Positions 26,078-30,817 of a stretch of 64,000 bases of DNA are shown here, piece after piece. The stretch spans positions 1 to 64,000 of the forward strand of contig NZ_JAUSRH010000003.1 in assembly GCF_030811715.1 (NCBI RefSeq), given 5' to 3'. Origin of the DNA: Sinomonas atrocyanea (GTDB lineage Bacteria; Actinomycetota; Actinomycetes; Actinomycetales; Micrococcaceae). A program made the position numbers and the translations under genes. How positions within the stretch are numbered: position 1 is the stretch's first letter; every line of letters begins with the position of its first letter. The notes beneath the pieces are model-generated. The model was not told the origin of the DNA, searched no databases, and was given only the letters and a program-made list of their open reading frames with translations.

Positions 26078-27189
26078 TGGCCCACCAGTGGCGCGGAGTC
26101 ATCCGCGAGTATGCAGACCGCCTGCCCGTCACCGCCTCGACGCGCGTGATCACGCTCGGGGAGGGCGGCACCCCGCTGGTGCACGCCCAGAAGCTCTCCG
26201 AGCTGACCGGATCGACGGTCTACCTCAAGGTCGAGGGCATGAACCCGACCGGTTCGTTCAAGGACCGCGGCATGACGATGGCGATGACGGCCGCCGTCGA
26301 GGCCGGGGCCAAGGCCGTGGTGTGCGCATCCACCGGCAACACGTCGGCGTCCGCCGCCGCCTACGCCACCTCCGCCGGACTCACGTGTGCGGTCCTCGTG
26401 CCCGAGGGCAAGATCGCGATGGGCAAGCTCAGCCAGGCGATCGCGCACGGCGCCACCCTGCTCCAGGTCGACGGCAACTTCGACGACTGCCTCGAGATCG
26501 CCCGCAAGCTCGCCGACTCCTACCCGGTCTTCCTCGTGAACTCGGTGAACCCGGCCCGCATCCAGGGCCAGAAGACCGCGGCCTTCGAGATCGTCGACGC
26601 CCTCGGCGACGCCCCGGACATCCACGTCCTCCCGGTGGGAAACGCGGGCAACATCTCCGCGTACTGGAAGGGCTACAAGGAGTACGCCACGGCGACGGAG
26701 TACGCCTTCGACGGCGGGGCCCCGCGCACGCTGGAGGCCGTGTCGACGAGGCTGCCCGTGATGTGGGGCTTCCAGGCCGCCGGCGCCGCGCCCTTCGTGG
26801 CCGGGCACCCCATCACGCACCCCGAGACCATCGCCACCGCGATCCGGATCGGCAACCCGGCCTCGTGGGAGACCGCTGTCGCCGCCCGCGATGAGTCCGG
26901 CGGCCTCATCGACGCCGTGACCGACGAGGAGATCCTCTCCGCGCACCGCTGGCTCTCGGCGCGCGAGGGCGTGTTCGTCGAGCCCGGGTCCGCCGCGAGC
27001 GTCGCGGGCCTGATCAAGATGCAGGCGGCCGGCCGCGTCCCGACGGGGAAGACCATCGTCTGCACCGTGACCGGGCACGGCCTCAAGGACCCGCAGTGGG
27101 CCCTCCGCACCGCCGACGGCGGCGAGGTCGAGCCCGTCAAGGTGGGCAACGACGTCGTGAGCGTCGCGGCCGCGCTGGGCCTGGCCTAG
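26077..27189 (+). CDS. thrC: Threonine synthase
   Basis: This 370-residue PLP enzyme of fold type II converts O-phosphohomoserine to threonine. The Schiff-base lysine is in [12 protein letters not shown] (Lys62), and the phosphate-binding glycine loop is [16 protein letters not shown]. It is the compact ThrC type found in actinobacteria and plants rather than the long E. coli form. The GTG start shares one base with the hom stop (TAGTG), so translation is coupled. Confidence 0.97.
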
Positions 27190-27197
27190 GTCCGCCG

Positions 27198-28196
27198 ATG
27201 ACGGCACCGACGACGGCGGCCGCCGAGTCGCTGCGCACCGTCGCCGCCGGGCAGCGCGTCACCGTGCGCGTGCCGGCGACGAGCGCCAACCTCGGCCCGG
27301 GCTACGACAGCCTCGGCCTGGCCCTCGCGATGTACGACACCGTGACCGTCGAGACGACCGACGGCGGCGGCCTCGCCTTCGAGCTGCGCGGCGAGGGTGC
27401 CGACACCCTCCCGCGCGACGAGACCCACCTCGTGGTCCGCACACTCGAGGCCGCGCTCGCGCGCCTGGGCTACCGGCACGGTGGACTGGCGCTGACCGCC
27501 GAGAATGTGAGCCCGCACGGCCGCGGCCTCGGCTCGTCCGCCTCGGCCACGGTCGCCGCTGTCCTCGCGGCCGCGGCGCTCGTCGCCCCCGAGGACCGCC
27601 CGGACCGGGCCTGGGCGCTCCAGCTCTGCAGCGAGATCGAGGGGCACCCCGACAACGTCGCGCCCGCGATCCACGGCTCGCTCGCCCTGTCGTGGCAGGA
27701 CGGAGAGGCCTTCCGGACGGCCATCGCCGAGGTGGCGCCCAGCGTGGTGCCCATCGTCGCGATCCCCGACTTCGAGCTCTCGACCGAGCTGGCCCGCTCG
27801 CTCCTGCCGTCCTCGGTCCCGCATCACGCCGCCGCGGCGAACGCCGGCCGCGCGGCCCTTCTCGTGCACGCGCTCACGAAGGACCCGTCGCTGCTCCTGC
27901 CGGCTACGGAGGACTACCTCCACCAGAGCTACCGCTCCAGCGCGATGGAGCCGAGCGCTCGGCTCATCGCCGCGCTGCGGGCTGAGGGCCACGCCGCCGT
28001 CGTCTCGGGCGCAGGGCCGACCGTGCTGGCCCTCGCCGACGGCGAGGACGAGGCCCGCGAGGTGCAGGCCGCCGTCGAGCGCTTCGCCCACGGCGTGCTC
28101 GACGCGGAGCAGGGCGCGGTCTCAGTGACACGCTGGCGTGTTGCGCGTCTGGCCGTGGACCGCGAAGGTGCTAGAGTGGACGTGCACCCACGGTAA
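27198..28196 (+). CDS. thrB: Homoserine kinase
   Basis: This GHMP-superfamily kinase of 332 residues phosphorylates homoserine for ThrC. Motifs are VRVPATSANLGPGYDSLGLAL at the N-terminus, the ATP-binding loop PHGRGLGSSASATVA, and the C-terminal VVSGAGPTVLAL glycine loop. ATG 27198 lies 8 nt after the thrC stop. The last 30 bp of the gene contain the -10 box TAGAGT proposed for rho. Confidence 0.96.
   Translation: MTAPTTAAAESLRTVAAGQRVTVRVPATSANLGPGYDSLGLALAMYDTVTVETTDGGGLAFELRGEGADTLPRDETHLVVRTLEAALARLGYRHGGLALTAENVSPHGRGLGSSASATVAAVLAAAALVAPEDRPDRAWALQLCSEIEGHPDNVAPAIHGSLALSWQDGEAFRTAIAEVAPSVVPIVAIPDFELSTELARSLLPSSVPHHAAAANAGRAALLVHALTKDPSLLLPATEDYLHQSYRSSAMEPSARLIAALRAEGHAAVVSGAGPTVLALADGEDEAREVQAAVERFAHGVLDAEQGAVSVTRWRVARLAVDREGARVDVHPR
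28172..28177 (+). promoter_or_regulatory. Putative rho promoter -10 inside the end of thrB
   Basis: TAGAGT matches the -10 type used across this window. Transcription from it would start near 28184, giving rho a leader of about 350 nt. No convincing -35 is seen. Read-through from the thr operon is also possible, as no terminator separates thrB and rho. Confidence 0.45.
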
Positions 28197-28251
28197 ATCT
28201 GTTCAGCGGTAAAATTTCCATCGGTGAAATTTCCAGTGGTGAATCTGCCCT
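28191..28251 (+). repeat. AT-rich tandem repeat in the rho leader
   Basis: Four imperfect units of 15-16 bp start at 28191, 28207, 28222 and 28237; the two middle units are CGGTAAAATTTCCAT and CGGTGAAATTTCCAG. They are about 60% A+T in a genome above 70% G+C. The first unit overlaps the thrB stop. They lie at the very 5' end of the predicted rho mRNA. Binding of a protein or of Rho itself, or base pairing, could be involved. Confidence 0.75.
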
Positions 28252-28404
28252 CGGCGACTAGGCCCGGGCACTGCGCGCCGCCTCCGTGATCCAGCTTCGT
28301 GCCAAGGGTGCCGCCCCTCCAGCTCTGTGCCTCGGTCCTGCTGCCCGCGCCTCTCCGCGCGCCAGCAGCGGCATCGACGGCAGCTCATGCTCGGGGCGGG
28401 CTGA

Positions 28405-28536
28405 ATGACTACGACGCTGCCCGGCCATCTGGCCTCGCAGCGCCACAGCCTGGCCGCCGCTCTCGTCGGCGGCCACGACCACGATGCGCCGGCCCATGAG
28501 AAGCCGGCGTCTCGACTCCGGAAGGACCATCCGTGA
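28405..28536 (+). CDS. Possible 43-codon leader peptide overlapping the rho start
   Basis: This ORF runs from ATG 28405 (GGGGCGGG 5 nt upstream) to TGA 28534-28536. It overlaps the rho GTG (28533-28535) in a GTGA junction. The peptide begins MTTTLPGHLASQRHS and is His/Asp-rich in the middle (GGHDHDAPAH). About one codon in five ends in A/T, more than in the neighbouring genes, so coding selection is uncertain. The precise overlap suggests coupling, in which translation of the leader would control rho initiation. No homologue is known to me. Confidence 0.35.
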   Translation: MTTTLPGHLASQRHSLAAALVGGHDHDAPAHEKPASRLRKDHP

Positions 28537-30701
28537 CACAGACCACTGAGCTGAACCCAGCAGTGGAAGCCTCCTCCGCGTCCGAGTCCAAGGGGATCGC
28601 CGGCCTCAAGCTCGCGCAGTTGCAGGCCTTGGCGTCCCAGCTGGGCATCACCGGTGGGTCCCGCATGCGCAAGGGCGACCTTGTCGCCGCGATCACCGCC
28701 CACCAGAAGGGCGAGCCGCTGGGCCGTCCCGCCGAGCGCCGCCGCCCAGCCGCGAAGGCCGAGGCCACCGCCGAGCTTCCCCTGCCCGAGACGCAGGCCC
28801 CCGCCCCCGCTCAGGAGGCCCCTGCGGCCGAGGCCCCCGCCGAGGCTGCTGCCCCGGCCCGCGGCCGTGGGCGGACCCGCCGCCGCGCGGGCAGCGACGG
28901 GGTCGTGACCCCCGCCGCCGGCGAGCAGGCCGCCCAGCCCGAGGCCGCGCCGTCGGCCGCTGCCCCCGAGGCCGCGCCGTCCGCCCCGGAGGCCGCCCCC
29001 GCGCCGCAGGAGGCCCCCGAGGCCGGCACCCGCCCGAGCCGCACCCGCAACCGCAACCGCCGCGCCGAGGCCGTGCAGGGGGCCGCCGAGGGCGCCCAGC
29101 CCGCCCGCGAGGAAGCCGCGGCCGAGGCCGCCGCCCCCGAGCGCGCCGAGGCCGGCCAGGCCGCACCGGCGGAGACCGCCGGTCGCCCCGAGGAGGCCGG
29201 CGAGGGCCGCGGCCGCCGCGAGCGCGGCCAGCAGGACCGTTCCGAGCGCCAGGAGCGCCAGGAGCGCCGCCGCGACGAGGGCGAGCGCCAGCAGGACCGT
29301 TCCGAGCGCCAGCAGGACCGCCGCCGCGACGAGGGCGAGGGTGACGAGGGCGGCTCGCGCCGCTCGCGCCGCAACCGCCGTGGCCGCGACCGCGACGAGG
29401 CCCAGCAGGGCGGGCGCAACGACCGCTTCCGCGACCGCAACGAGCGCCGCCGAGGCCGCAGCGCCGGCCCCGAGTTCGACGAGACCGAGGTGACCGAGGA
29501 CGACGTCCTCCTTCCGGTCGCCGGCATCCTCGACGTGCTCGAGAACTACGCCTTCATCCGCACCTCCGGCTACCTCCCGGGTCCGAACGACGTCTACGTC
29601 CCGCTCACCCAGGTCAAGAAGTACGGCCTGCGCAAGGGCGACGCGGTGGTGGGCGCGATCCGCGCCCCGCGCGAGGGCGAGGAGAACCAGGGCGGCGGCC
29701 AGGCCGGCGGCGGACAGGGCGGCCGGCACGGCAACCGCCAGAAGTTCAACGCCCTTGTGCGCGTCACGAGCGTCAACGGCAAGAGCCCCGAGGAGATGAA
29801 GAACCGGGTCGAGTTCACCAAGCTCGTCCCGCTCTACCCCTCGGAGCGCCTCCGCCTCGAGACCGACCCCAAGAAGATCGGCCCCCGCGTCATCGACCTC
29901 GTGGCGCCGATCGGCAAGGGCCAGCGCGGCCTCATCGTCTCCCCGCCCAAGGCCGGCAAGACGCTCATCCTGCAGTCCATCGCGAATGCGATCACCATCA
30001 ACAACCCTGAGGTCCACCTCATGATGGTGCTCGTGGACGAGCGGCCCGAAGAGGTCACGGACATGCAGCGCTCCGTCAAGGGCGAGGTCATCGCCTCGAC
30101 CTTCGACCGTCCGGCCGACGACCACACGACGGTTGCCGAACTGGCGATCGAGCGGGCCAAGCGCCTCGTCGAGATGGGCATGGACGTCGTGGTGCTCCTC
30201 GACTCGATGACCCGCCTCGGCCGCGCCTACAACCTCGCCGCGCCGGCCTCGGGCCGCATCCTCTCCGGCGGCGTCGACTCGGCCGCGCTCTACCCGCCGA
30301 AGCGCTTCTTCGGCGCGGCGCGCAACATCGAGAACGGCGGCTCGCTCACGATCCTCGCCACCGCGCTCGTGGAGACCGGCTCCAAGATGGACGAGGTCAT
30401 CTTCGAGGAGTTCAAGGGCACCGGCAACATGGAGCTCCGCCTGTCCCGCGCCCTCGCGGACAAGCGCATCTTCCCGGCCGTGGACGTCAACGCGTCCGGC
30501 ACGCGCCGCGAGGAGAACCTGCTCTCGCCGGAAGAGGTCAAGATCATGTGGCGCCTGCGCCGTGTGCTCTCGGGCCTCGACACGCAGCAGGCCCTCGAGC
30601 TGCTCACCACGAAGATCCGCGAGACCGGGTCCAATGTCGAGTTCCTCCTGCAGGTGCAGAAGACGACGCTCGCCGGCAAGGGCGAGAGCGACCGGCACTA
30701 G
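28533..30701 (+). CDS. rho: Transcription termination factor Rho
   Basis: The product is a hexameric RNA-dependent ATPase/translocase that terminates transcription. It has 722 residues against about 420 in E. coli. The N-terminal Rho_N helix-turn ([20 protein letters not shown]) spans about 20-55. It is separated from the RNA-binding OB domain (about 325-410; [20 protein letters not shown]) by a 250-residue insertion of Ala/Pro/Glu- then Arg/Glu/Asp/Gln-rich sequence. The P-loop is [12 protein letters not shown], with R-loop and Q-loop regions following. Insertions of this kind are known in actinobacterial Rho and alter RNA affinity. The start is GTG 28533 with GGAAGG 8 nt upstream. Confidence 0.98.
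29227..29340 (+). repeat. Duplicated segment in the Rho insertion domain
   Basis: A 26-bp block at 29227-29252 recurs identically at 29287-29312, and each copy is followed by the same CGCCGCCGCGACGAGGGCGAG block (29266 and 29320). Both copies encode the charged pattern QQDRSERQ ... RRRDEGE. The insertion domain of rho has evidently grown by in-frame duplication of about 54-60 bp. Confidence 0.75.
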
Positions 30702-30710
30702 CGCCCACCA

Positions 30711-30748
30711 CGGCGGCCGGGCCCGGGAGTCCCCGGGCCCGGCCGCCG
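30711..30748. terminator. 17-bp perfect hairpin between rho and prfA
   Basis: Arms 30711-30727 and 30732-30748 pair perfectly with a 4-nt loop. No U-tract follows. It lies 10 nt after the rho stop and about 70 nt before prfA, exactly where rpmE is found in the homologous mycobacterial cluster. It may end or attenuate rho transcription or stabilise its 3' end. Confidence 0.65.
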
Positions 30749-30817
30749 TCGTCGTCCCTCCTCGAGCCGGCACCGGCTCCCCAGACCAGTTGCACCGTCC
30801 CCAGAAAGGCCCCTGAC

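Follow-up and report, generated by a model that had tools for sequence, protein, structure and literature searches.

Conserved hairpins reach the start codon in the rho leader of Sinomonas and its relatives, a candidate cis-regulatory RNA

We propose that the region between thrB and rho in the window (the whole 64,000-nucleotide stretch of Sinomonas atrocyanea DNA analysed here) comprises the rho promoter and 5' leader, and that this leader acts as a cis-regulatory RNA that would limit ribosome loading and expose C-rich RNA to Rho, allowing autogenous attenuation. We put the probability of this reading at about one half. Comparison with relatives establishes its parts, namely a putative -10 box inside thrB, a C-rich sense strand, a leader with no conserved ORF and predicted hairpins conserved up to the start codon. 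Judging from the translations, the gene order is what we take to be a homoserine dehydrogenase-like gene, a threonine synthase-like gene and a thrB-like gene, then rho and a prfA-like gene. The rho coding sequence (28533-30701, + strand) starts with GTG, read in the sequence GTGA. This GTGA is present in all 15 members of the genus set, which consists of the window genome (G000, 4.2 Mb) and the 14 same-genus relatives in the genome collection.

The original prediction placed a -10 TAGAGT inside thrB, and the box is indeed there, as part of the extended -10 element TGcTAGAGT near the end of the gene (28169-28177, + strand). All 15 genus members have TGCTARAGT at 305 to 394 nt upstream of rho, which is beyond chance; despite the high GC content of the gene, AGA or AAA codons are used within the box. 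A related box is found at 59 of 67 family loci (52 plus 15 fetched, with better protein matches favoured and several family genera unsampled); the other eight include two, L085 and L067, where the rho start was not located and the box was not sought. Transcription would start at about 28183-28186. A sigma-70 consensus scan of 27800-28800, which requires a -35 box, returned nothing. The accompanying claim of a long rho leader also stands, in that rho has its own promoter box inside thrB followed by a long, conserved and folded leader. This leader may sense Rho or translation, as the original prediction held.

Among 91 distinct leaders of the order, the box was found for 77, and these leaders measure 179 to 461 nt with a median of 327. 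After removal of the last 60 nt, C exceeds G in 76 of the 77, as against 7 of 77 for the 300 nt that precede them (thrB stretches). A second comparison, made on the named loci and the window with genes called by a crude ORF rule, gave C above G in 23/23 rho leaders and in 32/58 other intergenic stretches of 150-500 nt. A long C-rich leader before rho, as looked for in a rho leader attenuated by Rho, is thus what was found, and its roughly 350 nt contain no conserved ORF among those tested. The sequence of the upper leader is not conserved between genera: long words common to many genera were not seen in it, and a separate word count was dominated by the promoter and the thrB end. No intrinsic terminator was found in 27800-28800.

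Four AT-rich repeats of 15-16 bp are present at 28191-28251 (+ strand), as originally described. The first copy contains the thrB stop codon (TAA, 28194-28196), so the repeats begin at the thrB end; TRF reported 2.7 copies at 28204-28243 with 84% matches and a score of 59, and GC content is 0.53 over 28150-28249 against about 0.75 around it. Among the 15 members of the genus set the repeats are complete in L004 and L006 and one unit short in L005, while L009 and L010 carry related GGTRAATC units in their place; by eye, none were seen in the other ten. As a genuine feature the repeats are limited to the window's clade, and they look like a local accident, probably slippage of a unit that takes in the thrB end. 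The suggestion that a regulator binds them, and with it the candidate of a conserved binding array, was abandoned since they are confined to near kin and the stretch that bears them folds like its shuffles (z -0.21).

The 43-codon ORF at 28405-28536 (+ strand) likewise exists, and its TGA overlaps the rho GTG as GTGA. Its start aligns with a start codon in four of the 15 genus members and its length is kept in three (the window and two near kin); in other members the frame that ends at GTGA is open for 10 to 145 codons, its starts are unrelated or absent, and stops interrupt it. Four other ORFs of at least 12 codons in the window leader keep their start in 3/15 each. The rho start reads GTGA in 81 of the order's 91 distinct leaders. 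An ATG ORF of 30 codons or longer stops at that position in 12 of the 91, with lengths of 42 to 114 codons, but no common length was found in that frame and the length of 43 codons recurs in the two near kin only. The ORF also runs across three predicted hairpins, Pa, Pb and Pc (see below), whose pairs are kept. From these comparisons we judge it to be what such a leader yields by accident and not a gene; a conserved small ORF, or a uORF-coupled leader, was rejected on the same lack of a conserved start codon and frame. The original prediction had joined the two features in one model, with the ORF coupling translation to rho and the repeats binding a regulator. The window and its two near kin do have the ORF with its GTGA overlap, but the counts for its start and length, the kept hairpin pairs beneath it and the ten species in which no repeats were seen make this model very improbable, and as a device conserved in the genus it is refuted: the conservation of repeats and ORF frame on which it depended fails outside the nearest relatives.

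At the 3' end of the family leaders we found a hairpin, H2, a short linker and a further hairpin, H3, made of ACGAGGG, a loop with GAAGGA, and CCTTCGT. The loop of H3 holds the Shine-Dalgarno (SD) sequence and its base takes in the first bases of the GTG start. We scored as SD-in-loop any hairpin with the SD core inside the loop and a stem of at least four pairs. Such a hairpin is present at 63 of the 67 family loci, which were fetched by Rho protein, and all four failures belong to one genus (g23). Counted by distinct family sequence the figure is 21/25, against a mean of 4.87 with shuffled flanks (maximum 9, 300 shuffles). A score of 33 of 35 rho sites comes from loci that had been fetched by the H3 sequence itself, and we give it no weight for that reason.

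Pairing in this element was examined by covariation. A model of H2 and H3, R1, was built from 20 sequences; the reference list has 83 rows, nine near-duplicate loci having been excluded, and alignments A1 and A2 take 46 and 20 of them. On alignment A3, which was fitted to the model and so is biased towards it, and which contains one non-rho chance row (L102), all eight H2 pairs show two-sided changes, in 154 cells against 44.4 in shuffles (0/500 as high). The H2+H3 model pairs 90.0% of cells, compared with at most 59.5% when it is slid. These compensatory changes beyond both shuffles and slid controls are those of a conserved structured RNA. H3 is nearly invariant in the order, with two-sided changes at one of its seven pairs, so that its pairing rests on its sequence and on the class-wide comparison.

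Searches with R1 show how closely the element is tied to rho. The model gave 82 matches in 93 sources, comprising 65/65 family loci (20 of them training sequences), 6/15 genus loci, 10 order loci fetched by H3, and L102. In the genomes of the order it gave 83 matches in 81 of 198 genomes; the 117 genomes without a match include three of genus g3, which belongs to the same family as the window. Seventy of the 83 matches were examined and 67 lie upstream of rho. Of the 30 best matches, the script traced 29 into Rho, and Rho coding sequence is also visible in the remaining one, L124, which is offset within its stretch; among the 40 weaker ones, 34 were assigned to rho by script and three by eye (L384, L385, L404), and three are non-rho matches (L387, L388, L390) with E values of 1.8e-4 to 7.2e-4. 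A scan of the named genomes with the H3 sequence returned at least 119 stretches, and 76 of the 80 examined open into Rho by script. Three of the other four (L154, L162, L178) end at the stretch edge, L162 after one residue, and in the fourth, L171, a Rho-like beginning is followed by a break in the frame. Arthrobacter, Pseudarthrobacter, Nesterenkonia, Kocuria, Cellulomonas, Actinotalea, Intrasporangium and Brevibacterium are among the matches listed. With up to three mismatches, the H3 sequence was found in 14 of 394 class genomes, all inside the order. The match in the window genome (L102, G000:C6:14302-14379, outside the window) lies within another coding region and is due to chance.

Hairpins with a UCUGA loop are present in 73 of 159 distinct leaders, against a mean of 4.75 and a maximum of 10 in 100 shuffles. 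In 58 of the 73 the loop begins 68-80 nt upstream of the start codon, a position that we call H1, and in 12 it begins 33-38 nt upstream, at the place of H2. Recognition sites typically keep a loop while their stems vary, as is seen here in 15 of 26 genus or family groups, and H3 covers the ribosome-binding site. Some factor other than Rho, either a protein or a small molecule, could accordingly bind H1, H2 and H3, read the UCUGA loop and switch rho translation. However, 86 of the 159 leaders, including that of the window, have no UCUGA-loop hairpin, and many of the named bearers are close Arthrobacter relatives that share one stem. We know of no effector for H1-H2-H3, and consider this alternative possible but doubtful. 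CsrA binds GGA loops, which made it a candidate; yet it occurs in 6/10 order genomes with an R1 match and in 6/9 without one. Since its occurrence does not follow the element, CsrA as a general effector, or a CsrA-type operator, was discarded. A CsrA homologue is encoded in the window genome (G000:C1:73109-73267, outside the window), one of 12 genomes with such a homologue among the 19 order genomes searched.

We then turn to the window and its genus. Folding of 28304-28545 gave -121.7 kcal/mol with a z score of -3.11, and 2 of 200 shuffles folded as well. The predicted structure (all features on the + strand) contains a long-range helix, P1, present in both the MFE and the centroid structure, in which GGGUG (28306-28310) pairs with CAUCC right before the start codon (28528-28532). 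It also contains a helix P2 between CGCCCC (28312-28317) and GGGGCG (28393-28398), and the hairpins Pa (28415-28442), Pb (28451-28475) and Pc (28482-28514). Pb occupies the H1 position with a loop altered from UCUGA, and Pc corresponds to H2. At least four of the six P1 pairs are possible in 15/15 genus members, with one position occupied by G-C or by A-U depending on the clade, and all six P2 pairs are possible in 14/15, with a change from C-G to U-G between clades. Two-sided changes affect 6 of 11 pairs in Pa and few in the other two hairpins (1/6 in Pb, 2/10 in Pc). Taken together, the three hairpins have such changes at 9 of 27 pairs and in 28 cells, against 10.9 cells in shuffles (0/500 as high) and 2 to 10 cells when the hairpins were slid as a control; nine changed pairs were reached in 10/500 shuffles, and the tally of pair types is unremarkable (145/500). 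These counts come from alignment A4, in which three rows are one column off in Pb and were counted as they stand.

The genus divides at the ribosome-binding site. Clade B (six species) passes the SD-in-loop test, whereas clade A, formed by the window and eight other species (9/15), fails it and has neither the H3 sequence nor the UCUGA loop. The rho Shine-Dalgarno sequence GGAAGGA (28520-28526, + strand), which in relatives lies in the H3 loop, is placed here in a rebuilt, weaker hairpin. Instead of H3, clade A has GGAAGGACCAUCCG, which can form a local CGGA/UCCG hairpin, to which CAUCC would contribute, or join P1. The two pairings are mutually exclusive and may mark the site of a switch. A second model, R2, found rho in the six clade B species at E 2.3e-8 or better and gave weak matches in two species of clade A (E 2.0 and 5.15). 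In the window genome, rho was found neither by R1 nor by R2, whose best match there (E 0.007) is elsewhere. By these predictions the H1 and H2 hairpins are kept in the window's clade and H3 is rebuilt.

Beyond the order, SD-in-loop hairpins with different stem sequences recur before rho. We sampled other families by the Rho N-terminal domain, obtaining 111 loci, five without a start, with some genomes sampled twice; 41 of the 106 usable loci have such a hairpin, against 9.4 with shuffled flanks (maximum 19, 500 shuffles). Class-wide, 17/60 distinct sequences, from 13 of 32 families, have one; shuffled flanks gave 4.93 (maximum 13, 300 shuffles). The stems, among them AGGG/CCCU, UGGG/CCCA, CAGG/CCUG and ACUCGG/CCGAGU, vary in a manner suggestive of compensation. 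With at least four pairs required, none was found in families f11, f20, f25, f34 and f40, among others. These structures might have no regulatory role and serve only to shield the mRNA or to leave the ribosome-binding site free. An SD in a loop may be accessible, and it can equally mean good access and not repression, which also counts against attenuation. Other genes, however, do not favour this arrangement: in the named loci and the window it occurs at 39 of 383 (10%), below the 13% obtained with shuffled flanks. In addition, rho is autoregulated elsewhere (PMC6582626). We regard the absence of regulation as unlikely.

Structured RNAs associated with Rho are already known as a kind. The Pseudomon-Rho motif lies upstream of rho. 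Under the accession RF01720 it has been put forward as a structured cis-regulatory RNA of Pseudomonas (PMC2864571), and the element described here is similar in being a structured cis-regulatory RNA candidate tied to Rho. It belongs to no Rfam family above cut-off: an Rfam scan of window positions 27000-30800 and of 20 relatives gave no such family and no match to RF01720, and a covariance search for RF01720 in 19 order genomes gave 0/19, its built-in controls being silent too, which leaves the weight on the Rfam scan. The only known families to appear were C4 antisense RNA, in the rho-prfA spacer (30706-30753; 26.7 bits against a cut-off of 45), probably by chance, and KCNQ1OT1_1 (L037); neither came close to its cut-off.

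In E. coli and B. subtilis the rho leader is attenuated by Rho itself (PMC6582626, PMC12350095). The long C-rich leader reported here would suit such control of rho through its own leader; unlike in those two systems, conserved hairpins lie at the ribosome-binding site. The E. coli thiC riboswitch, in which occlusion of the ribosome-binding site and Rho-dependent termination act together (PMC5234074), offers another parallel, with structure at the start codon and, as proposed here, Rho-dependent termination. It differs in that no ligand is known for the present leader and the controlled gene is rho itself. A literature search returned no account of the control of rho in these GC-rich bacteria and, with most subscription journals beyond its reach, no paper on a structured rho leader in Actinomycetes.

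We infer autogenous attenuation from a leader that is C-rich and lacks a conserved ORF, from the hairpin at the ribosome-binding site and from how rho is known to behave in E. coli and B. subtilis. The hairpins would slow ribosome loading, so that the C-rich leader would remain naked for a time in which free Rho could bind it and terminate transcription before rho or early in it. Ample Rho would in this way reduce its own synthesis, and when Rho is scarce transcription would pass. Several observations count against this reading: clade A, with the window, fails the SD-in-loop test, neither model detects rho in the window genome, most order genomes (117 of 198) have no R1 match, H3 hardly varies, Pb and Pc show few two-sided changes with an unremarkable tally of pair types, and the upper leader diverges in sequence from genus to genus. 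In the window's clade the same job might be done by the rebuilt local hairpin and the long-range helix P1 as mutually exclusive structures. A bolder version, which we think improbable, is that the rho ribosome-binding site in many Actinomycetes is an RNA operator composed of the SD-in-loop hairpin, the flanking hairpins and the UCUGA loop, at which Rho or a partner would shut off translation, with stalled initiation handing the naked leader to Rho. If true, this would place Rho under double autogenous control. Rho sets the extent of early termination across the transcriptome, and an RNA element that is conserved, linked to rho and located at its ribosome-binding site would offer a concrete handle on Rho level and on genome-wide termination.

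Two further features of the locus were observed. An open frame of 856 aa runs antisense to rho and its leader (28203-30773, - strand) and is probably the usual antisense frame of GC-rich DNA. The N-terminal part of Rho, encoded by 28740-29560, is long and of low complexity, rich in A, P and E and then in R, D, E and Q; actinobacterial Rho proteins have long low-complexity N-terminal parts of this kind.
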